From Sulfolobus sp. S-194 (GTDB lineage Archaea > Thermoproteota > Thermoprotei_A > Sulfolobales > Sulfolobaceae), in NCBI RefSeq assembly GCF_012222305.1, contig NZ_CP035730.1, forward strand, positions 930,001 to 994,000: a DNA stretch of 64,000 nt. Direction: 5' to 3'. The notes under the pieces were generated by a model, which worked only from the letters and a program-made list of their open reading frames with translations, was not told the DNA's origin and made no database searches. Both the position numbers and the translations under genes were made by a program. The first letter of the stretch is position 1. Each line of letters begins with the position of its first letter. Of the stretch, positions 21,797-63,461 are shown piece after piece.

Positions 21797-22651
21797 AGCA
21801 TTTTATAGCTGAATTATTCTTATGATGATTAGTTTTTTGTGAATTAAGTTGAAAATATTATATATTTAAGAGCGCTATATTAATAGAAAATATTATCACT
21901 AAAGTGTAATTTCCCTAATATTGTTCTAACTATCGTGATATTAATACCTACAGATCTGTGGAGGAAAGAAGTTAATCCATGGTATTTTTAAAGAATTTTC
22001 ATAAAGAACTATATTTCTTTCTACATAATAACTTTACTTAATAAATGCTATTAATATTTATTAGAAATTATATGTTACTACTGAAAAACGATAGAGATAC
22101 TATAATAATTTTATGTCTAGTGATGAAAAGAGCTCTAGGGCAAATGAAAACTGTGCAACCAGTTCTCCTACGCTTGTCATTACTCTACTAAAACTTATCT
22201 AGATACCATAATGTTCCTGGCTAACTATGGTAATTAGTAAAGAGTAATAGTTCGTGCTAAAGATTGTTACTCACAGTGCTGAAATTATTGTCTATTGAGA
22301 AAACTTTGCGTAAATAGATTAGAAATAAACTTACACTCTAATAAATTACTGTAAAACAAATGGATTAAAATTCTATTTTACAAATACTAGAGAATATATA
22401 TATATCAAATGAATTATTTCTTCTAGAATTACACCAATTTTAAAAGAATATTACAATTCACGAAAAATCTTTAAATAGTTCTTTCCTTAAGTAATGAGAG
22501 AAATATTTAATCGGTTGAGTAATAACTAATAGAATATCATATTGAGTTGATGTGTAGCCACTAATTTGGTCTTCATATTATGATAAAATATTAAAAAATA
22601 GCTTATTAGTTTAGTAAATTAATATCAGTGGTTATGAAGATGTCTCATGTG
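21797..22651. other. Long intergenic stretch, no supported gene
   Basis: Very A+T-rich, with only ORFs under 30 codons. A short phrase around 22120-22200 reads like decayed coding sequence but matches nothing I know. The Rieske gene that follows is on the opposite strand, so the stretch lies between two convergent transcripts. Confidence 0.5.
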
Positions 22652-23253: not shown

Positions 23254-24471
23254 ATGGATGTGTTTGACGCAATCTCCAACGAGGTTAGGAGGAAGATATT
23301 GAAAACCTTGCAAGTACCTAAATCCTTCTCGGAACTTTTAGAGGAATTAAACATAGAAAGTCCTGCTTTGGCGTTTCATTTAAAGAAATTAGATGGTTTA
23401 ATCTCAAAGGATAATGAAGGAAAATATACTCTTACAGAAGAAGGGAAGAAAGCTTTATCTATAATAAATATGATTGAAAGCCAAAATATCTCTCTTTCAA
23501 GTCAAGCCGAAATTCCTATGATAATTCAGTATGTTGATAATTTTATAGTAACGGAGAATATGATTAGGAAACTGAAAGAGATGGGAAGAAAACTCATAAT
23601 AAGGGACTCTAATACAGTTGAATTTCAAGATATCGACCCCAATCTGCTCAGTGACGTTTTAGAGAGTATCGAGAATGTTTCTACAGTTAAATGCCCAGAG
23701 GAGTTAGTTAATGTTATATCATCTAAATCGAAGAACGTAATTAGTATAAGGACTGATGAAGCACAACATACTATGCCTCTAACAGACTTGAATTTACAAC
23801 CCGGGAAAAGTACTGAAAGAGAGAAAGAAGGACTTCTTAGCAGATTCCTTTCAGCAATATTTCCTTCAATTAGAATTAATAATAGGTTAAGGGTAGTATA
23901 TGATGGTCCTCTTCAAACATTTAAAGATCTTACCATAGAACTTGACGGAGGAATAGTAACGGTATTTAAAGGAGAACCTCATCTTCTCGCTAAATGTGTA
24001 GATATGGGAGATCTGGACATAAATAATAACACTATTAGAGCTGATGGTTGCTATCTGAGAATCTCTTATCCAGATTTAAATTCACTTAAGATTAACGTTG
24101 ATGGAGGAAAAGTAAGTATTTCAGAAATTAAGATGAATAACCTCTATGTAGAAATAGATGGAGGCATTATTGACTTTAATATTACTGTCCAAAATGAAGT
24201 CAGTGTTTCTATAGATGGAGGTAAGATAAGTGGACAAATCTCCTTCTTACCCTCTAAAGAATCTAAACTATTATTGTCTGTGGACGGAGGTATTGGTGAT
24301 ATTACATTATCTTTACCTGATGACATTAGTGTAATTTCGAACTCAACAATAAATGGCGGATTTGTTGATTTACCAATGAGTAGAATAGGTAAGAACGGTG
24401 TTCTTTATATTAATGCCTCAGTAGATGGAGGAGTCATTAAGATAAAAGAGAATAAGAAGCATGAAACTTGA
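23254..24471 (+). CDS. ArsR-type HTH domain fused to DUF4097-like beta-repeat domain
   Basis: 405 residues. Residues 1-75 are an ArsR-type winged helix (FDAISNEVRRKILKTLQVPKS, PALAFHLKKLDGLI). Residues about 75-180 form a mixed middle domain. From about 210 a beta-repeat follows with D/N-GG at regular spacing (IELDGGIVTV, NVDGGKVSI, EIDGGIIDF, SIDGGKISG, SVDGGIGDI, INGGFVDL, SVDGGVIKI), typical of DUF4097-type beta-solenoids usually found in extracytoplasmic or envelope-stress proteins. Here it has no signal peptide or membrane helix. A TATA box tctttaaat lies about 27 bases before the ATG. A membrane protein gene follows after 17 bases. Confidence 0.8.
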   Translation: MDVFDAISNEVRRKILKTLQVPKSFSELLEELNIESPALAFHLKKLDGLISKDNEGKYTLTEEGKKALSIINMIESQNISLSSQAEIPMIIQYVDNFIVTENMIRKLKEMGRKLIIRDSNTVEFQDIDPNLLSDVLESIENVSTVKCPEELVNVISSKSKNVISIRTDEAQHTMPLTDLNLQPGKSTEREKEGLLSRFLSAIFPSIRINNRLRVVYDGPLQTFKDLTIELDGGIVTVFKGEPHLLAKCVDMGDLDINNNTIRADGCYLRISYPDLNSLKINVDGGKVSISEIKMNNLYVEIDGGIIDFNITVQNEVSVSIDGGKISGQISFLPSKESKLLLSVDGGIGDITLSLPDDISVISNSTINGGFVDLPMSRIGKNGVLYINASVDGGVIKIKENKKHET

Positions 24472-24488: not shown

Positions 24489-25652
24489 ATGAAGATACCT
24501 AAGGAAATAATGAGTGTAGTATTTTTGGCTACTCTTCTTAATTTCGTAAATGCGTTTATAGGATATTATTTCGTAATAAACACCTACTTGGTTTATAACA
24601 ATCTGATAATCTCAGCGTTAGTATTGACCTTATTAAACGCTCCTAACGTCTTCTCGATACCTTTTCCCTATATTTTTAAGAGACTGAAAAGTGTAAAGAT
24701 TAATGTAATAATATTCCCTACATTAGCCTTTCTAGTAGTCTTCACTTTAAGTCTAGTTTTGACACCATTAGTAGAGATCCTCCTTATAGCTTTGTTCGAT
24801 TTCCTAATTTTGGTATCAAGCAGATCATTAGGATATTATGCAAGGACTTTACTAGACAAATATGGTGAATTCATAGATTATAATTCTATTCGTGAAATCT
24901 CCTTTTTAGGCGCGTCTATCATCGCGTTAATATTAGTGGGGCTATTTAATACGTACTTATCAAGAACTTATCTACCTATTATAGGATTCCCTCTATTGAT
25001 AGTAGCCCTTCTATCCATGATATTAAATGACGTTAAGATAACCCTCTCTTCTACTAATTCCTTTAAGGTGTGGATAAACTATCTAAAGAGTAACCGTATA
25101 TTTAGGTTCTTGGAAACACGGGTATATCCAGTTATAGGTCTGGCTAGTGCATCATCTGTTTTGTTTCTTAAACTTGTTTATGTAAACAAGGAAACTTTCC
25201 CAGAATACATTACTATAGTCTTAATAGTGAGCATATTAGCCCAGGTAATTGGTGCCATTATTGCTCTAAAGTGGAAGTCGAAGACTACAAGAAAATTCCT
25301 GCTCTTATCACTTCCTGCCATATCAATTGAATATGTATTTCCCTTCATTCGTGGCGATTTAATACCTATTTCAGTTTTAACTTTCTTTCAGTCAGTGCTC
25401 GTGGCTTACGTTTTCATTCATATTAATTCTATTTATCAATATATTATTAGTAAAGATGTTTACGTAAATGTCACAATCACACAAGCAGTTTTAACGCAAG
25501 TCTCAATATTTATGGTGAGCATTTTAGTATCGGCAATAGCTACTGTCGTGGGGATTACATACGCTTATATAGGTAATGCGTCAATAATGCTACTAGTAGT
25601 ATTATTTACAATATTCTCTAACATCATAAAGGATATAAGAGCAGGGGACTAG
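24489..25652 (+). CDS. 12-TM MFS-like membrane protein
   Basis: 387 residues and about 12 hydrophobic helices in two halves, with weak MFS features but no clear motif A. The start codon is 17 bases after the HTH/beta-repeat gene, so the two form an operon. The regulator probably senses a condition handled by this transporter, or the membrane protein is itself controlled by it. No substrate can be inferred. Confidence 0.75.
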   Translation: MKIPKEIMSVVFLATLLNFVNAFIGYYFVINTYLVYNNLIISALVLTLLNAPNVFSIPFPYIFKRLKSVKINVIIFPTLAFLVVFTLSLVLTPLVEILLIALFDFLILVSSRSLGYYARTLLDKYGEFIDYNSIREISFLGASIIALILVGLFNTYLSRTYLPIIGFPLLIVALLSMILNDVKITLSSTNSFKVWINYLKSNRIFRFLETRVYPVIGLASASSVLFLKLVYVNKETFPEYITIVLIVSILAQVIGAIIALKWKSKTTRKFLLLSLPAISIEYVFPFIRGDLIPISVLTFFQSVLVAYVFIHINSIYQYIISKDVYVNVTITQAVLTQVSIFMVSILVSAIATVVGITYAYIGNASIMLLVVLFTIFSNIIKDIRAGD

Positions 25653-44096: not shown

Positions 44097-44718
44097 ATTT
44101 CTTTACCCCTTTAAGTTTATATAAAAGGATTTAAAAATTTTTGTAGATAATAATTCATAGAAGGTAGAGATGTTCACTATAAATTCACTTTATTTCCGCA
44201 ATAAGAGATAGAATAATTGAGTACGATTTAACAAGTTATATTAGCAGATATGAGCAGGATATTATACTAACTAGTAACAACTCTATTGAATTATCTTAGA
44301 TGAAACATTTTTACACTCTATTAATGTTACTCCTCTTCTGAAAATTTGTTTATCACTCTTCTCTTTATAGTGTAATAATTTATAAACGTCCACATATCTA
44401 AAAAATTACTAAGTTAAAGGCTATCAGCCTTAATAATTAGTCTAACGTTTCTTTCGAAGCATATCATTGTTCTTGAGAAGAAATCTTCCCTACCTAAAAT
44501 TAGGCTGGGATATATACCCTTGCCTAGGCTGGGGTTTCTTTATCCCAGTATATTTTGCAATAAGAGGCAGGTCAAGGAGATATTTGCCGTATGATATTAC
44601 ATATGCTATAGATATGTATTATATAATGAGGTATAATTAGTAGAGACGAGTTTATGCAAATTATTGATAGATATAAGTGATAAGACGGATTAAGATCACT
44701 TAAAATTTATAATCACTA
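44097..44718. other. Gene-poor stretch with relics
   Basis: Contains a decayed fragment of the 122-residue gene (44284-44385, listed separately) and a G+C-richer block at 44490-44600 with CTGGG...CCCAG hairpin potential. On the plus strand about 44575-44640 reads openly for 20 codons (ending YAIDMYYIMRYN) like the end of a transposase, but no family was recognised. Confidence 0.5.
44284..44385 (-). pseudogene. Decayed partial copy of the 122-residue gene
   Basis: Aligns with bases about 42160-42260 (for example attgaattatctt, ctctattaatgt, actcc, ttatc, tcttctc) with many substitutions and small gaps. No reading frame remains. It shows that the segment was duplicated before or during the rearrangements that copied the SnoaL-like gene. 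Confidence 0.65.
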
Positions 44719-45957
44719 TTATTTAGCTAATTTGATATTCCTAGTCTTCATGAACAGTATCGTATAAATTATTGCGCCTAAAATTCCTATACATCTTAAA
44801 ACGCTTAATATTCCAATTTCTGAGCCAATTTGCGAAATGATAATTACTGCTATAGAATATACTAGAGAGAAAATAAACTCCATTAAAGGTATTATGAGGC
44901 GTATCTTCTCCTTTTCTATAAATGTAATTAAAAATGAGTTTAGATATATAAATGAAGAATTCTCTAGTATAAGTATTGCAAATACTCCTATCATAAATAT
45001 GGGGAAGACAGAGATAGACAAAGATAATAATATAGTTAATATAGATATACTAATTCTGTAAAATAATATATACTCGCTAAATGTCTTAACGTTTAATATA
45101 TTGGAAATATATGTAGCTAAAATCGTTGATATGGATAAGAATATAAGATAGATAGAATAGCTAGAATTGAACATATTTGTAATACCCAATAGATAGAAAA
45201 TGATAGGGGATACCGAAGTTATAATAGGATATACTATATAATCACTCACAAGAAAAAGTTTTGCAGTATTGTTCATCTTCCGTAGGGATTTAAACTGATT
45301 TATAAATGAAGAAGTAATAGTGGAACTTTCGGCAGTAGGGTAACGTAGCTTTAATTTAAAGAAAAGAGTAATTAGCATAAAAATTAATAATAATGCAAAT
45401 CCCACGCTAAAAATTAATAATCCATATATATTCTCTAGCAAAATTATAGTTATAACTATTACAGTCTGGTTTATTTGACGTAAGGAGCTTAAGATTCCCT
45501 CAAGATTTCTTAGCTTATCAAAATTAATATTTGTACTTTTTAATAAATATAAGTTGACCGGTTCTCTAAGTATAAATAGGGAAACAAATATTCCTTGAAG
45601 TATTGCATAAATAGGAGCAAAACTATAATTAGCCATAGCTAGGCCTACAACAAATATCAAAGTAATAATTTGTAGTGAAATTATTGTAAGATCGTATCTC
45701 TTAAGATTTTTTACCGAATTATTTATTGCAGAGGAAAATGGGAGTAAAAAAGATGGAATTCCACTTAATGAGGTAACAACAATTAACCCTATATCTACTA
45801 AACTCCTAGAAGAAAGATAGATATAGCCTACCAGCAAATAATAAAGTATTAAATTAACGGGTAATAGCTGAGTTACAAAAAGAACCTTTACTGTATCGTT
45901 TTGTTTTAGCACTTCAAGAGCCTTAATAATTTCTCTAATCTTTTCCATATTTTTCAT
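44719..45957 (-). CDS. MFS-like exporter of the candidate peptide locus
   Basis: 412 residues, about 12 hydrophobic helices in two halves; weak MFS similarity (GLAMANYSFAPIYAILQGIFVSLFI style), low conservation of motif A. ATG 45957 lies inside the end of the radical SAM gene (overlap 23 bases) and has GGTGATAT just upstream, so it is translated with it. Position last in a peptide-gene / radical SAM operon suggests export of the modified peptide, as MFS proteins do in other RiPP clusters. The alternative is an unrelated importer. Confidence 0.7.
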   Translation of the reverse strand: MKNMEKIREIIKALEVLKQNDTVKVLFVTQLLPVNLILYYLLVGYIYLSSRSLVDIGLIVVTSLSGIPSFLLPFSSAINNSVKNLKRYDLTIISLQIITLIFVVGLAMANYSFAPIYAILQGIFVSLFILREPVNLYLLKSTNINFDKLRNLEGILSSLRQINQTVIVITIILLENIYGLLIFSVGFALLLIFMLITLFFKLKLRYPTAESSTITSSFINQFKSLRKMNNTAKLFLVSDYIVYPIITSVSPIIFYLLGITNMFNSSYSIYLIFLSISTILATYISNILNVKTFSEYILFYRISISILTILLSLSISVFPIFMIGVFAILILENSSFIYLNSFLITFIEKEKIRLIIPLMEFIFSLVYSIAVIIISQIGSEIGILSVLRCIGILGAIIYTILFMKTRNIKLAK

Positions 45958-46978
45958 ATATCACCATTCCTAGACTAATAATATCTTCATTATTTATAGC
46001 ATTTTCATACGGGCATAATAGTTCGGCGGGATTTCTACTCCTTAATCCTCGTGTCCACCAACCAAATTTATCTTTATCTAGGTATAGGTTTCCATTATTA
46101 TCTAGATACCCCACTATTCCTCTATCGCTATAAAGATCTTGACTACATTTAGCTATTTTTCCATCAGGTTTTATAATGAAACCAAAGGGATATGTTGCAG
46201 TACTGCACATGCCTTTTATTATTCTATTTTTAGCTATTTTTCCTACATTAAGACCTAACATTTTAGCATAGTCGTACAGTTCATATAGAATTTTACTCCT
46301 GGTCTCATAATCCTTTTCTACTACTGGAAGCTTATCGTCATTAGGACCTCCATATTTTTCTAGAAATGCAAAATAAACTATAAATCTTTCATCATTAGCT
46401 ATAGTTTTTGATAGCTCGTTTAATAGAAGTTTAATCGAATCTAAGTTTAGCCTATTTATATGAACTCTAATATGAATTTCAAACTTCTCATCAATATTAT
46501 TTTTTATTTCGATTAGATTATTCATTATTTTATCGAATGTCCCTTTGCCATCTAATCTTATCCTTAACTTATCATGAAAATCTTTATATCCATCAAAAGT
46601 AATTTGAAAAGATGTAACACCAAGACTTAATAATTCCTTAAATCTATCTAGAGTTAATAAATATCCATTAGTTATCATATCGGATATTATCTTATTATCA
46701 CTATTTTTAATTGAATTAACATATTTCATTATATCAACAATAATATTATATGCTATTAATGGCTCACCGCCATACCAAGAAATATGAATAATCTTGAAAA
46801 GAGGAATTTATTTTTTTATAAATTCCTTTATAGATTTAACAACGTTATCAGGCATTAATATTTTATCTTTAAAGAATTTCTCATAACAATATATACATCT
46901 AAAATTACACCACTCGGTAGGCATTATAGTCAGATGCAAATAAGAACCAAAAAAATCTAAATTACCTTTTATAGTCAT
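45935..46978 (-). pseudogene. Radical SAM peptide-maturase-like protein (Twitch/SPASM type) with one in-frame TAA
   Basis: Start ATG 46978 with AAGGGGGT upstream. Radical SAM motif C24-x3-C28-x2-C31 (EWCNFRCIYCYEKFF). A TAA at 46808-46810 is codon 57; the same frame continues at once with IPLFKIIHISWYGGEPLIAY, so the conserved GGEP SAM-binding motif lies between the stop and the first ATG of the second part. The C-terminal region has IIKPDGKIAKC and further Cys (GMCSTATYPFG, ELLCPYEN), a Twitch/partial SPASM auxiliary-cluster region. Either a single nonsense mutation or stop readthrough applies. It begins 13 bases after the 38-codon peptide gene and overlaps the exporter gene. Confidence 0.82.
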
Positions 46979-46991
46979 TATAGTTACCCCC

Positions 46992-47108
46992 TTAGCACAC
47001 AAATCCGCTTATTGGCCTACCATCCGTACAATATATAGGTTGTATATCTTCTATTATTGTGTTTATTTCGTTCATCAAGGTTTTTATATTATCTATCTTT
47101 ACTACCAT
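46992..47108 (-). CDS. Candidate RiPP precursor peptide, 38 residues
   Basis: Begins MVVKIDNIKTLMNEINTIIE and ends QPIYCTDGRPISGFVC. The first half is an amphipathic leader-like helix (I/L/M at i, i+3/4). The C-terminal core has two cysteines (27 and 38, the last residue) enclosing a Gly/Pro/Ser segment. It ends 13 bases before the radical SAM gene. A TATA-like tttatagctt lies 26-32 bases before the ATG, so it probably starts a leaderless operon. No homologue is recognised; the call is context and composition. Confidence 0.6.
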   Translation of the reverse strand: MVVKIDNIKTLMNEINTIIEDIQPIYCTDGRPISGFVC

Positions 47109-47130
47109 ATTGTATTCACTAAATTAATGT

Positions 47131-47140
47131 AAGCTATAAA
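47131..47140 (-). promoter_or_regulatory. TATA box of the candidate peptide operon
   Basis: On the minus strand tttatagctt (47131-47140) is centred about 28 bases upstream of ATG 47108, the spacing for a transcript starting at the first codon. No ribosome site precedes the ATG, in agreement. Confidence 0.5.
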
Positions 47141-47438
47141 CAGTTTTTTTAACATAATACATAAAAACTTTTTAGTATAATGTAAAAATTCTCTTATAAA
47201 AGGAAATAAGCATAAAACAAATATCCCTTATAGAGTCAATATTACAATATTTAGCTATTTATAATTAAAGATACGAATTACTTAGTGCGAATGAATTATT
47301 AAGGTTAAAATAAGATAGTAAAGAAAATAGAGATAAAGATTTTTTAAGTTAAAACTGAAGATGACGTAATTTAGGTATATTACATGAATATATAATGTTT
47401 TACAGTTTCTAATAGTTAAAATATCTTAAACACAGCTA
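47141..47438. other. Intergenic stretch
   Basis: Very A+T-rich, no ORF. Separates the peptide operon from the GNAT gene. Confidence 0.5.
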
Positions 47439-61559: not shown

Positions 61560-61740
61560 TGGTTCAGTTTCAAGGGGTTTGGGCTTCATTGAATTTTCAT
61601 GAATTTGTATCTAATTCTCAGCCCTTGGGCTTCACCAAAGTCACGGGGAAACCCGTTCATCCCTCTCCGCCCCATTAGCGGGATAACCCCAACCCACACC
61701 CGCGGTATTTCACGGATGTGAGGAAAACCGCACATCTTGA
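61560..61740 (-). ncRNA. Candidate omega (reRNA) region overlapping the 3' end of tnpB
   Basis: TnpB nucleases of IS200/IS605/IS607 are guided by an RNA from the 3' end of their own gene and the element's right end. Here that stretch is G+C-rich, has a hairpin AGCCC-AA-GGGCT (61620-61631) and the direct repeat TTGGGCTTCA at 61579-61588 and 61625-61634. No RNA family can be assigned from sequence alone. Confidence 0.35.
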
Positions 61741-62878
61741 GATAAATATTCAGTGACGCGTTCAGTTGTCTATCCAACTTGAACCCACACCTCTCACACT
61801 CAAAAGTCCTGCCAACCTTTCGGGATACAAACCCACATCTGGGGCAAGACCTAGATGTAAGGTGTGGGTTCACTTCCTTAACGAAAGAACCGTAAAATGG
61901 AGCCTTATACTTCAACACTCTGTGTATACTCCTCCAAACAGTCCTAGAAATCTTCCTCGAAAGAGAGTCATTAGCATCCTTAAACATCTCTTGCTTATTC
62001 AACTTCTCAACAGCAAGCATCGTAATGGGATACATCTCTAGTAATTTGTTCACGAACTTGTAGACGTAATCTAACACACGGTTCCTCTCATGACGAGAAT
62101 ACTTCCTCATTAACTCCTTCCCCTTCCTACCGTGCTTTGAAGCAAAGGACTGTATTCTACCCCTCTTCAACTGCATACCGTACTTCAAACTGTACAACTC
62201 TTTAATCGAGAACGTGATGAACTTCTCTCCATCATAAGCGTCTAGTGTGTACAAGTTACTATCAATTGCTAGGTAATCTAGTGGAGTAAACCAGGGTAAC
62301 TTATAACGAAATGGCAAATACACTTTCTCCTCCTTAATTATGGGCTCACCTAACTCAAGTCCCTTAACCCTTCGTGAAAACCAAGTGTGAGACCAAGAGA
62401 AGGTAATATACTCGTAAGGTCTTACAGTAATCCTAACACTCTCACCATCAACCTTCCTTAACGTCGACTTTACCCTTACATAAACCTTCTTTAATCTAGG
62501 TTTCCTTAATGATGTTTGTCCCTTCTCAGCCCTTCTTCTCCAACTCTTCAGTATTGAGTAAGCGTCGTTTATTGCCCTGTCAACGTAATGGGAAGCTAGA
62601 ACGTTAATCCTCTCAAGCTCGTCTCTTAACGTCTTGTAAACCTCCTTTTTCTTAGGCAAGGTTATTTTAACCTTTGTGAAAATTTTTTTACCTTTCTTCA
62701 CTTGTTTTCTCTCTACCTTAGTCCTATCCCATAACCAGTCTAATGCTTTGTGTAGTAGGTTTTTGTAGTTTTCTAGTAATACTTTACTCTCCTCCTTCTT
62801 ATCGTTCTTCAAGGAGTATGTTAGGTAGATGTACTCCTCCTTTGGTCTGAATGATTTAAGCTTTAAGTTCTTCAGCAC
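61586..62878 (-). CDS. tnpB: TnpB-type RNA-guided nuclease of an IS607 element
   Basis: 430 residues. RuvC-like catalytic residues: Asp in DYLAIDSNLYTLDAYDG (about 220), Glu in MLAVEKLNKQEMF (about 295), Asp in GFKLDRQLNASLNIY (about 378). Between them a zinc finger C-x2-C...C-x2-C (SCPRCGFVSRKVGRTFECERCG). N-terminal helical/WED region LKSFRPKEEYIYLTYSLKND. All acidic residues are there, so a functional nuclease is likely. Translation starts inside tnpA's last codons. Confidence 0.92.
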   Translation of the reverse strand: MLKNLKLKSFRPKEEYIYLTYSLKNDKKEESKVLLENYKNLLHKALDWLWDRTKVERKQVKKGKKIFTKVKITLPKKKEVYKTLRDELERINVLASHYVDRAINDAYSILKSWRRRAEKGQTSLRKPRLKKVYVRVKSTLRKVDGESVRITVRPYEYITFSWSHTWFSRRVKGLELGEPIIKEEKVYLPFRYKLPWFTPLDYLAIDSNLYTLDAYDGEKFITFSIKELYSLKYGMQLKRGRIQSFASKHGRKGKELMRKYSRHERNRVLDYVYKFVNKLLEMYPITMLAVEKLNKQEMFKDANDSLSRKISRTVWRSIHRVLKYKAPFYGSFVKEVNPHLTSRSCPRCGFVSRKVGRTFECERCGFKLDRQLNASLNIYLKMCGFPHIREIPRVWVGVIPLMGRRGMNGFPRDFGEAQGLRIRYKFMKIQ

Positions 62879-63461
62879 ATTTCTTCACCTTTTCGTATTT
62901 ATGACTTCTCATTCCGTATAGTTTCCCACTGAATGAGACTAGTATTGAGACTAAGTCTTCGACCAATTCTTGTTCTGGTGTTTTGTCCTCTTGGTTTAGT
63001 ACTACTATTTCACAGTTGTGTGCTTTGCACACTTCCTCTAGGATTTCGAAACCGAATCTAACAAGTCTGTCTGGGTAAGCTATTATTACGCGTGATACTT
63101 CGTTGTTTAGTATCATTCTCAACAACTTCAAGAACCCCTTTCTCTTCATGTTTAACCCGGAACCTATGTCTGTGATTACTTGGTCGTACTCCTTGACTTG
63201 TTCCTCTAGGTATTTTACTTGGTTTACTAGATCGTCTTTTTGTGTGTTTGATGATACTCTAGCGTATAATATTACTTTTCTTTTTCTAATAATTCCCATT
63301 AGCCTCTCTACGTCCTCTTCTCTGAACCTCCATTTTCCGCTCTGTAGTATAACTGGTTTTATGTATCCTTTCTTAACGTAGTTCTGTAGTGTGCGATACG
63401 AAATTCCTAAGCGTTGGCATACTTCCTTAGGTTTTAGCATCATAATTAAACTTACATACAA
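62856..63461 (-). CDS. tnpA: IS607 transposase TnpA, serine recombinase with MerR-like HTH
   Basis: 201 residues. N-terminal MerR-type HTH (MLKPKEVCQRLGISYRTLQN, YVKKGYIKPVILQSGKWRF), then a serine-recombinase domain: VILYARVSSNTQKDDLVNQ with the catalytic Ser, DIGSGLNMKRKGFLKLL and IIAYPDRLVRFG. This is the small IS607-type recombinase that catalyses transposition via double-strand breaks and covalent Ser-DNA links. ATG 63461 or the ATG seven residues later are the starts (the latter, MLKPKEV, is the family's usual one). Confidence 0.93.
   Translation of the reverse strand: MYVSLIMMLKPKEVCQRLGISYRTLQNYVKKGYIKPVILQSGKWRFREEDVERLMGIIRKRKVILYARVSSNTQKDDLVNQVKYLEEQVKEYDQVITDIGSGLNMKRKGFLKLLRMILNNEVSRVIIAYPDRLVRFGFEILEEVCKAHNCEIVVLNQEDKTPEQELVEDLVSILVSFSGKLYGMRSHKYEKVKKCAEELKA

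Follow-up and report, generated by a model that had tools for sequence, protein, structure and literature searches.

The window analysed here, a 64-kb stretch of the Sulfolobus sp. S-194 genome, carries on its minus strand, tightly packed and in this order, an open reading frame (ORF) of 38 codons, a radical SAM frame and an ORF of 412 codons for a membrane protein. The first one (46992-47108, minus strand) begins with ATG and encodes a candidate precursor peptide of 38 amino acids, MVVKIDNIKTLMNEINTIIEDIQPIYCTDGRPISGFVC, with cysteines at position 27 (47030-47028) and at position 38 (46997-46995), the latter being the final residue. Direct reading of the upstream sequence gives a core promoter (47135-47150, minus strand) composed of a BRE-like A-rich run (47150-47141) and a TATA-like TTTATA (47140-47135) that begins 32 nt before the peptide ATG, an arrangement that fits leaderless initiation. 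The radical SAM maturase frame (45935-46978, minus strand), which is interrupted as described below, contains the radical SAM cysteines 24, 28 and 31 (46909-46886) and the auxiliary cysteines 258 (46207-46205), 278 (46147-46145) and 322 (46015-46013). The third gene (44719-45957, minus strand) is an intact ORF for an MFS-type membrane protein of 412 amino acids, a predicted exporter with a proposed role in self-protection, and a 90% identical intact copy is found without a maturase in another genome, G011. Direct reading also gives an SD-like GGGGGT (46986-46991, minus strand) ahead of the radical SAM start and an SD-like GGTGA (45961-45965, minus strand), present in G011 as well, ahead of the exporter start. 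Leaderless TATA spacing at the first gene together with SD-like sequences before the second and third is the pattern expected of an archaeal operon. A preliminary description of this stretch had claimed a 38-codon Cys-ended gene with a TATA box at leaderless spacing, a 13-base gap between the peptide stop and the radical SAM gene, a C-x3-C-x2-C motif and an overlap of the radical SAM gene with the exporter; all of these are borne out by the ORF at 47108-46992 and its TTTATA, by the radical SAM ATG at 46978, by the motif at 46909-46886 and by the 23 bases shared with the exporter ORF (45957-44719).

The same description took the radical SAM protein to be whole and missed an in-frame TAA (46808-46810, minus strand), evident from direct reading and translation, which is codon 57 of the frame and divides it into 56 codons and a piece of 264 amino acids. 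At least 90% of the aligned maturase rows have Arg at this codon. The reading frame is the same on either side of the stop, which excludes a bypass by frameshifting. The first ATG of the 264-aa piece lies past the GGEP motif, and no ATG, GTG or TTG precedes that motif; two functional radical SAM halves are improbable for this reason, and we rejected a split enzyme. The maturase is broken in this genome because of the TAA at 46808-46810, leaving Sulfolobus sp. S-194 without the intact modifying enzyme expected of a RiPP cluster; the window copy is thus probably inactive, and with its maturase interrupted the locus is probably not producing. Of the three-gene RiPP layout proposed earlier, the genes and their order are real and the RiPP reading holds at the level of the family, whereas the maturase of this particular copy is not functional as written.

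For profile searches the maturase frame was used with the stop read through. It matches Radical_SAM (PF04055) in Pfam with 70 bits and shows the CxxxCxxC, the GGEP motif and the auxiliary-cluster cysteines of a radical SAM enzyme with a Twitch-type C-terminus, C258, C278 and C322 being invariant in the maturase alignment. Since approximately 20 residues precede CxxxCxxC, which is too few, the enzyme has no N-terminal RRE. The comparison with HMMs of RiPP maturase families suggested in the preliminary description returns, as top NCBIfam matches, almost exclusively RiPP maturases, with TIGR04463 (E 1.8e-48), CefB, Clo7bot, geopeptide and PapB in the lead; all fall below their curated cut-offs (165 against 525 bits for TIGR04463, 134 against 600 for CefB, 96 against 340 for PapB and 71 against 425 for SCIFF), and by these thresholds the maturase is a member of none of these families. 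The best of them, TIGR04463, CefB (NF038107) and Clo7bot, are maturases of Cys-rich peptides, but the scores of 120-165 bits against cut-offs of 525-600 are accompanied by models about 100 aa longer that are matched only from position 78-87 on. By sequence, the ranthipeptide maturase CteB (5wgg, E 1e-24) is the nearest chain of solved structure, and a structural model of the maturase (pLDDT 81) has anSME and CteB as its top Foldseek matches in the PDB. Resemblance to the SCIFF (CteA-CteB) and freyrasin (PapA-PapB) systems therefore lies in this nearest structure and in the presence of PapB and the SCIFF maturase among the better NCBIfam matches; unlike the window maturase, which scores far below their cut-offs, CteB carries an RRE at its N-terminus together with a complete SPASM domain, and the cores in those systems contain multiple cysteines. 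In the maturase tree, relatives from Sulfolobaceae, Thermoplasmata, Micrarchaeota and Marsarchaeota fall into a single archaeal clade (support 99/90), within which the maturase of G016 groups with that of the window (100/94). In a sample of 398 genomes from the same phylum as the window, close members are confined to Sulfolobaceae. On an IMG/VR contig (L188:4941-6138), an NxxC peptide lies downstream of a maturase of the short type.

Most maturases of the family have a short Cys-rich ORF directly upstream, usually Cys-ended, and often an exporter downstream. Examples are the peptide upstream of the G005 maturase, MILDQFGRIKETKGINENTIEYLILANQLTGPILKCGNFIC, with similar ones in G021 and G030, the upstream peptides of Thermoplasmata such as MEIDEYGRTFGVDEEIGEFFDDVNGNCPVVNFIC, and a peptide of different sequence in G016 that ends in DLYSAC. 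Among control genes from the same regions, with family members set aside, a Cys-ended small ORF at that position occurs in about 1 of 142. The preliminary description had staked its reading on small ORFs recurring upstream of radical SAM orthologues; against this background the orthologues do have an upstream Cys-ended small ORF as well as a downstream MFS-type exporter, so that a short precursor stands beside the modifying enzyme in related genomes, as in a RiPP cluster. Outside the window's subclade the leaders contain hxhDxxGRh and the cores N-x-x-C. In the window peptide the leader motif is absent and a leader HMM built from the relatives gives 2.7 bits at rank 7; N-x-x-C is likewise absent, with no Asn in the core CTDGRPISGFVC, and the best pairwise p against relatives is 0.017 before any correction. 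The G016 peptide has neither leader motif nor NxxC, yet it is Cys-ended in the same position. Three related G016-type copies have the leader and the first and last core residues in common and differ in mid-core; two of them stand with a dead or missing maturase, and these two have also lost the stop codon following the final Cys. A second subtype occurs in G014 and G021 (L151:4555-4698, minus strand, and L160:7162 onward) with a 47-aa peptide (ending in CVIC in G014 and in CVIG in G021) divergent from the maturase, together with an unknown gene of 367 aa and an ABC ATPase. In a Micrarchaeota MAG (L047:5845-6957) a leader-like LSFDKFGRLVF followed by DVC is fused in frame to the N-terminus of the maturase, either a natural fusion or a lost stop codon.

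The cores of the family point to a particular chemistry. In peptides picked by the leader motif and at least two Cys, and not by Asn, an Asn stands three residues before 39% of the Cys compared with a background of 7%. NxxC is present in 20 of 27 non-redundant peptides against a shuffled mean of 8.3, a count reached by none of 5000 shuffles; the family thus carries the mark of NxxC ranthipeptides and the window peptide does not. In NxxcA, a Streptococcus ranthipeptide, Cys23 is cross-linked to Asn20 within such a motif (PMC8326336), and the function of NxxC peptides is uncharacterised (PMC13361665). By this analogy sactipeptide chemistry, named earlier among the options, appears less likely for the family than an NxxC-type thioether, and the window/G016 branch may form a different cross-link without Asn.

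The window exporter has no Pfam or NCBIfam match, and its AlphaFold2 model is poor (pLDDT 49). A crude hydropathy count gives 10 segments, and the 12-TM exporter proposed earlier is plausible; exporters of several related loci match MFS_1 with E values from 1e-4 to 1e-14. Apart from the G011 copy, exporters are 18-21% identical to that of the window, whereas maturases are 36-42% identical, a far greater divergence between loci that is expected of cargo-matched proteins.

In our survey of 31 Sulfolobaceae genomes the presence of the exporter is patchy. The full set of peptide, maturase and exporter occurs in G005, G016 and G021, the last with a frameshift near the maturase C-terminus. At six loci (the window, two in G011, a second one in G005, and one each in G029 and G003) an intact exporter accompanies a dead, truncated or missing maturase. 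One G011 locus has lost approximately 1,054 nt, so that the start of the peptide runs in frame into codon 317 of the maturase behind a retained core promoter, and the other consists of peptide and exporter with no maturase. Decay is complete at other loci of the family, among them additional copies in the Sulfolobus sp. S-194 genome. The opposite situation, an intact maturase with a dead exporter, was not found in the 31 genomes; a Marsarchaeota MAG has an intact maturase beside an exporter frameshifted at an A-run. The sample is small, and the asymmetry of 6:0 (one-sided sign test, 1/64) becomes 6:1 when this MAG is counted. Intact exporters with a dead or missing maturase at six loci, and no locus of the opposite kind, suggest that self-protection against a bacteriocin-like product is the reason for retaining the exporter. 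For exporters, dN/dS comes to 0.30 in the window/G011 pair and to 0.19 in the pair G005 and G021, both of which are peptide-bearing, and some of the window/G011 divergence may predate the loss of the maturase. For the G002/G003 exporter after maturase loss, dN/dS is about 0.6-0.85 on only 20 differences, too few to demonstrate selection, and the G002 copy is interrupted. Micrarchaeal loci have no adjacent exporter. A search for empty sites through the GNAT flank found G002 and G003 not syntenic and gave no match in G001 and G011, a plasmid search returned only bacterial matches below 60% identity, and relatives are present on viral contigs, the three best-placed of which have no Sulfolobaceae-like neighbours.

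Taken together, we consider it likely, with a probability of about 0.68, that the locus is a RiPP operon belonging to an archaeal clade in which the radical SAM/Twitch maturases have no RRE, and that it was inactivated here at the maturase step; the best reading of the window is a recently inactivated RiPP locus moving towards the exporter-only state. In working loci, the maturase would bind a short precursor, translated from a leaderless transcript, by the leader at its N-terminus. A 5'-deoxyadenosyl radical would be generated at the radical SAM cluster (Cys24/28/31), and the substrate Cys would be held by an auxiliary cluster with three Cys ligands (258/278/322) and probably an open iron site. 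A thioether would then join the substrate Cys to a residue upstream of it, in most cases, by analogy with NxxcA, to the C-beta of the Asn in N-x-x-C. The MFS protein would export the product and also shield the producer; it is probably a self-protection protein against the peptide, whose export and bacteriocin-like use we infer, with the exporter-only remnants lending this indirect support. In the window, a nonsense codon would have stopped this pathway at the maturase, with peptide and exporter ORFs intact, and relatives in which the maturase is decayed or deleted and the exporter kept are what would be expected if the exporter gave resistance to a toxic product of neighbours.

The TAA might be a sequencing error or be suppressed, in which case the locus would be live, making and exporting its peptide; this would agree with a single lesion that leaves the remaining conserved maturase residues and the peptide and exporter ORFs intact. 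We think it improbable, however, since the change preserves the frame, as a substitution does, within a finished single-contig genome that also harbors more decayed copies, and no suppressor of TAA is known here. About equally unlikely is that the 38-codon ORF arose by chance and that the true precursor lies elsewhere or is lost: the missing NxxC and the lack of a significant match to the family leader would be explained, but the ORF has the exact operon position, a core promoter and a terminal Cys, an ending seen in just 2 of the window's 152 ATG ORFs with lengths of 25-70 aa, G011 retains the TATA and the peptide start MVVKIDN, the latter fused in frame, and the sister branch G016 has its own Cys-ended peptide, equally free of both motifs, in the same place.

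A more serious, though still unlikely, alternative concerns the exporter, which could be a general efflux pump of value in itself, with the peptide acting as a signal, metal ligand or cofactor precursor and no self-protection involved. Exporters do persist without maturase or peptide, and the uncharacterised function of NxxC peptides (PMC13361665) leaves room for such roles. A general pump accords poorly with exporters that diverge so much more than the maturases, with their patchy distribution, and with the finding that the intact copies examined have next to them a precursor or a maturase, whole or as a remnant. Self-protection within an inactivated RiPP operon is preferred.

Among known systems, NxxcA/NxxcB of Streptococcus orisratti (PMC8326336, PMC13361665) resembles the archaeal family in its radical SAM enzyme with an auxiliary-cluster domain and in the NxxC core motif enriched in the family, NxxcB being likened by description; the archaeal maturases differ in having no RRE, many of the precursors are Cys-ended, and the window and G016 peptides are without NxxC. 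Sulfolobicins and haloarchaeal lanthipeptides (PMC10105419, PMC12144867) are likewise archaeal proteinaceous or RiPP antagonists, but the former are membrane-associated proteins and the latter use LanM, and neither is described with radical SAM chemistry; sulfolobicins are the sole Sulfolobales antagonists named in PMC10105419. The earlier view that such loci are scarcely described in Sulfolobales is to be corrected in that predicted radical SAM RiPP clusters have been reported in bulk across archaea, including TACK and DPANN (PMC12144867). In the literature examined, we found no archaeal radical SAM RiPP with a characterised or reported product. What is new here is an archaeal RRE-less, mostly terminal-Cys branch with a family motif matching NxxC ranthipeptides, and its exporter-only remnants. 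A broader proposal, that these are an undescribed archaeal family of terminal-Cys NxxC thioether RiPPs in four lineages, serving antagonism in Sulfolobaceae and leaving exporter remnants as resistance genes, is put forward tentatively, as somewhat doubtful in its full extent. Complete loci are available in Sulfolobaceae (G005 and G016), together with a prediction of the cross-linked residue for most family members (the Asn at position -3 from Cys) and a candidate immunity gene that can be tested. If the RiPP reading is right, peptide warfare of thermoacidophilic archaea becomes open to direct experiment, and the pattern of loss would be that familiar from bacteriocin loci, in which the maker genes are gone and protection is retained.

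Further copies and insertions were noted in the course of the survey. In the genome that contains the window, decayed copies lie at G000:C1:1503175-1505283 (L155), with peptide, maturase and exporter remnants, and at G000:C1:1002704-1003550 (L184), with exporter pieces only; another is a 58-residue relic in the window (22124-22291, minus strand), 55% identical to the G005-type exporter. The window also encodes a 387-aa membrane protein (24489-25652, plus strand), distantly similar (24%) to the exporter, directly 3' of a regulator-like ORF (23254-24471) and with no adjoining maturase. The remnant locus of G011 (L154:7561-7672) contains a MITE-like insertion of approximately 110 bp with terminal inverted repeats just 5' of the core promoter. 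In the window, a fragment at 44283-44393 is a partial duplicate of the 41922-42290 gene (75% over 116 bp), and a transposase-like pair, consisting of a resolvase-type ORF and a zinc-finger-type ORF, is located at 61586-63461 on the minus strand.
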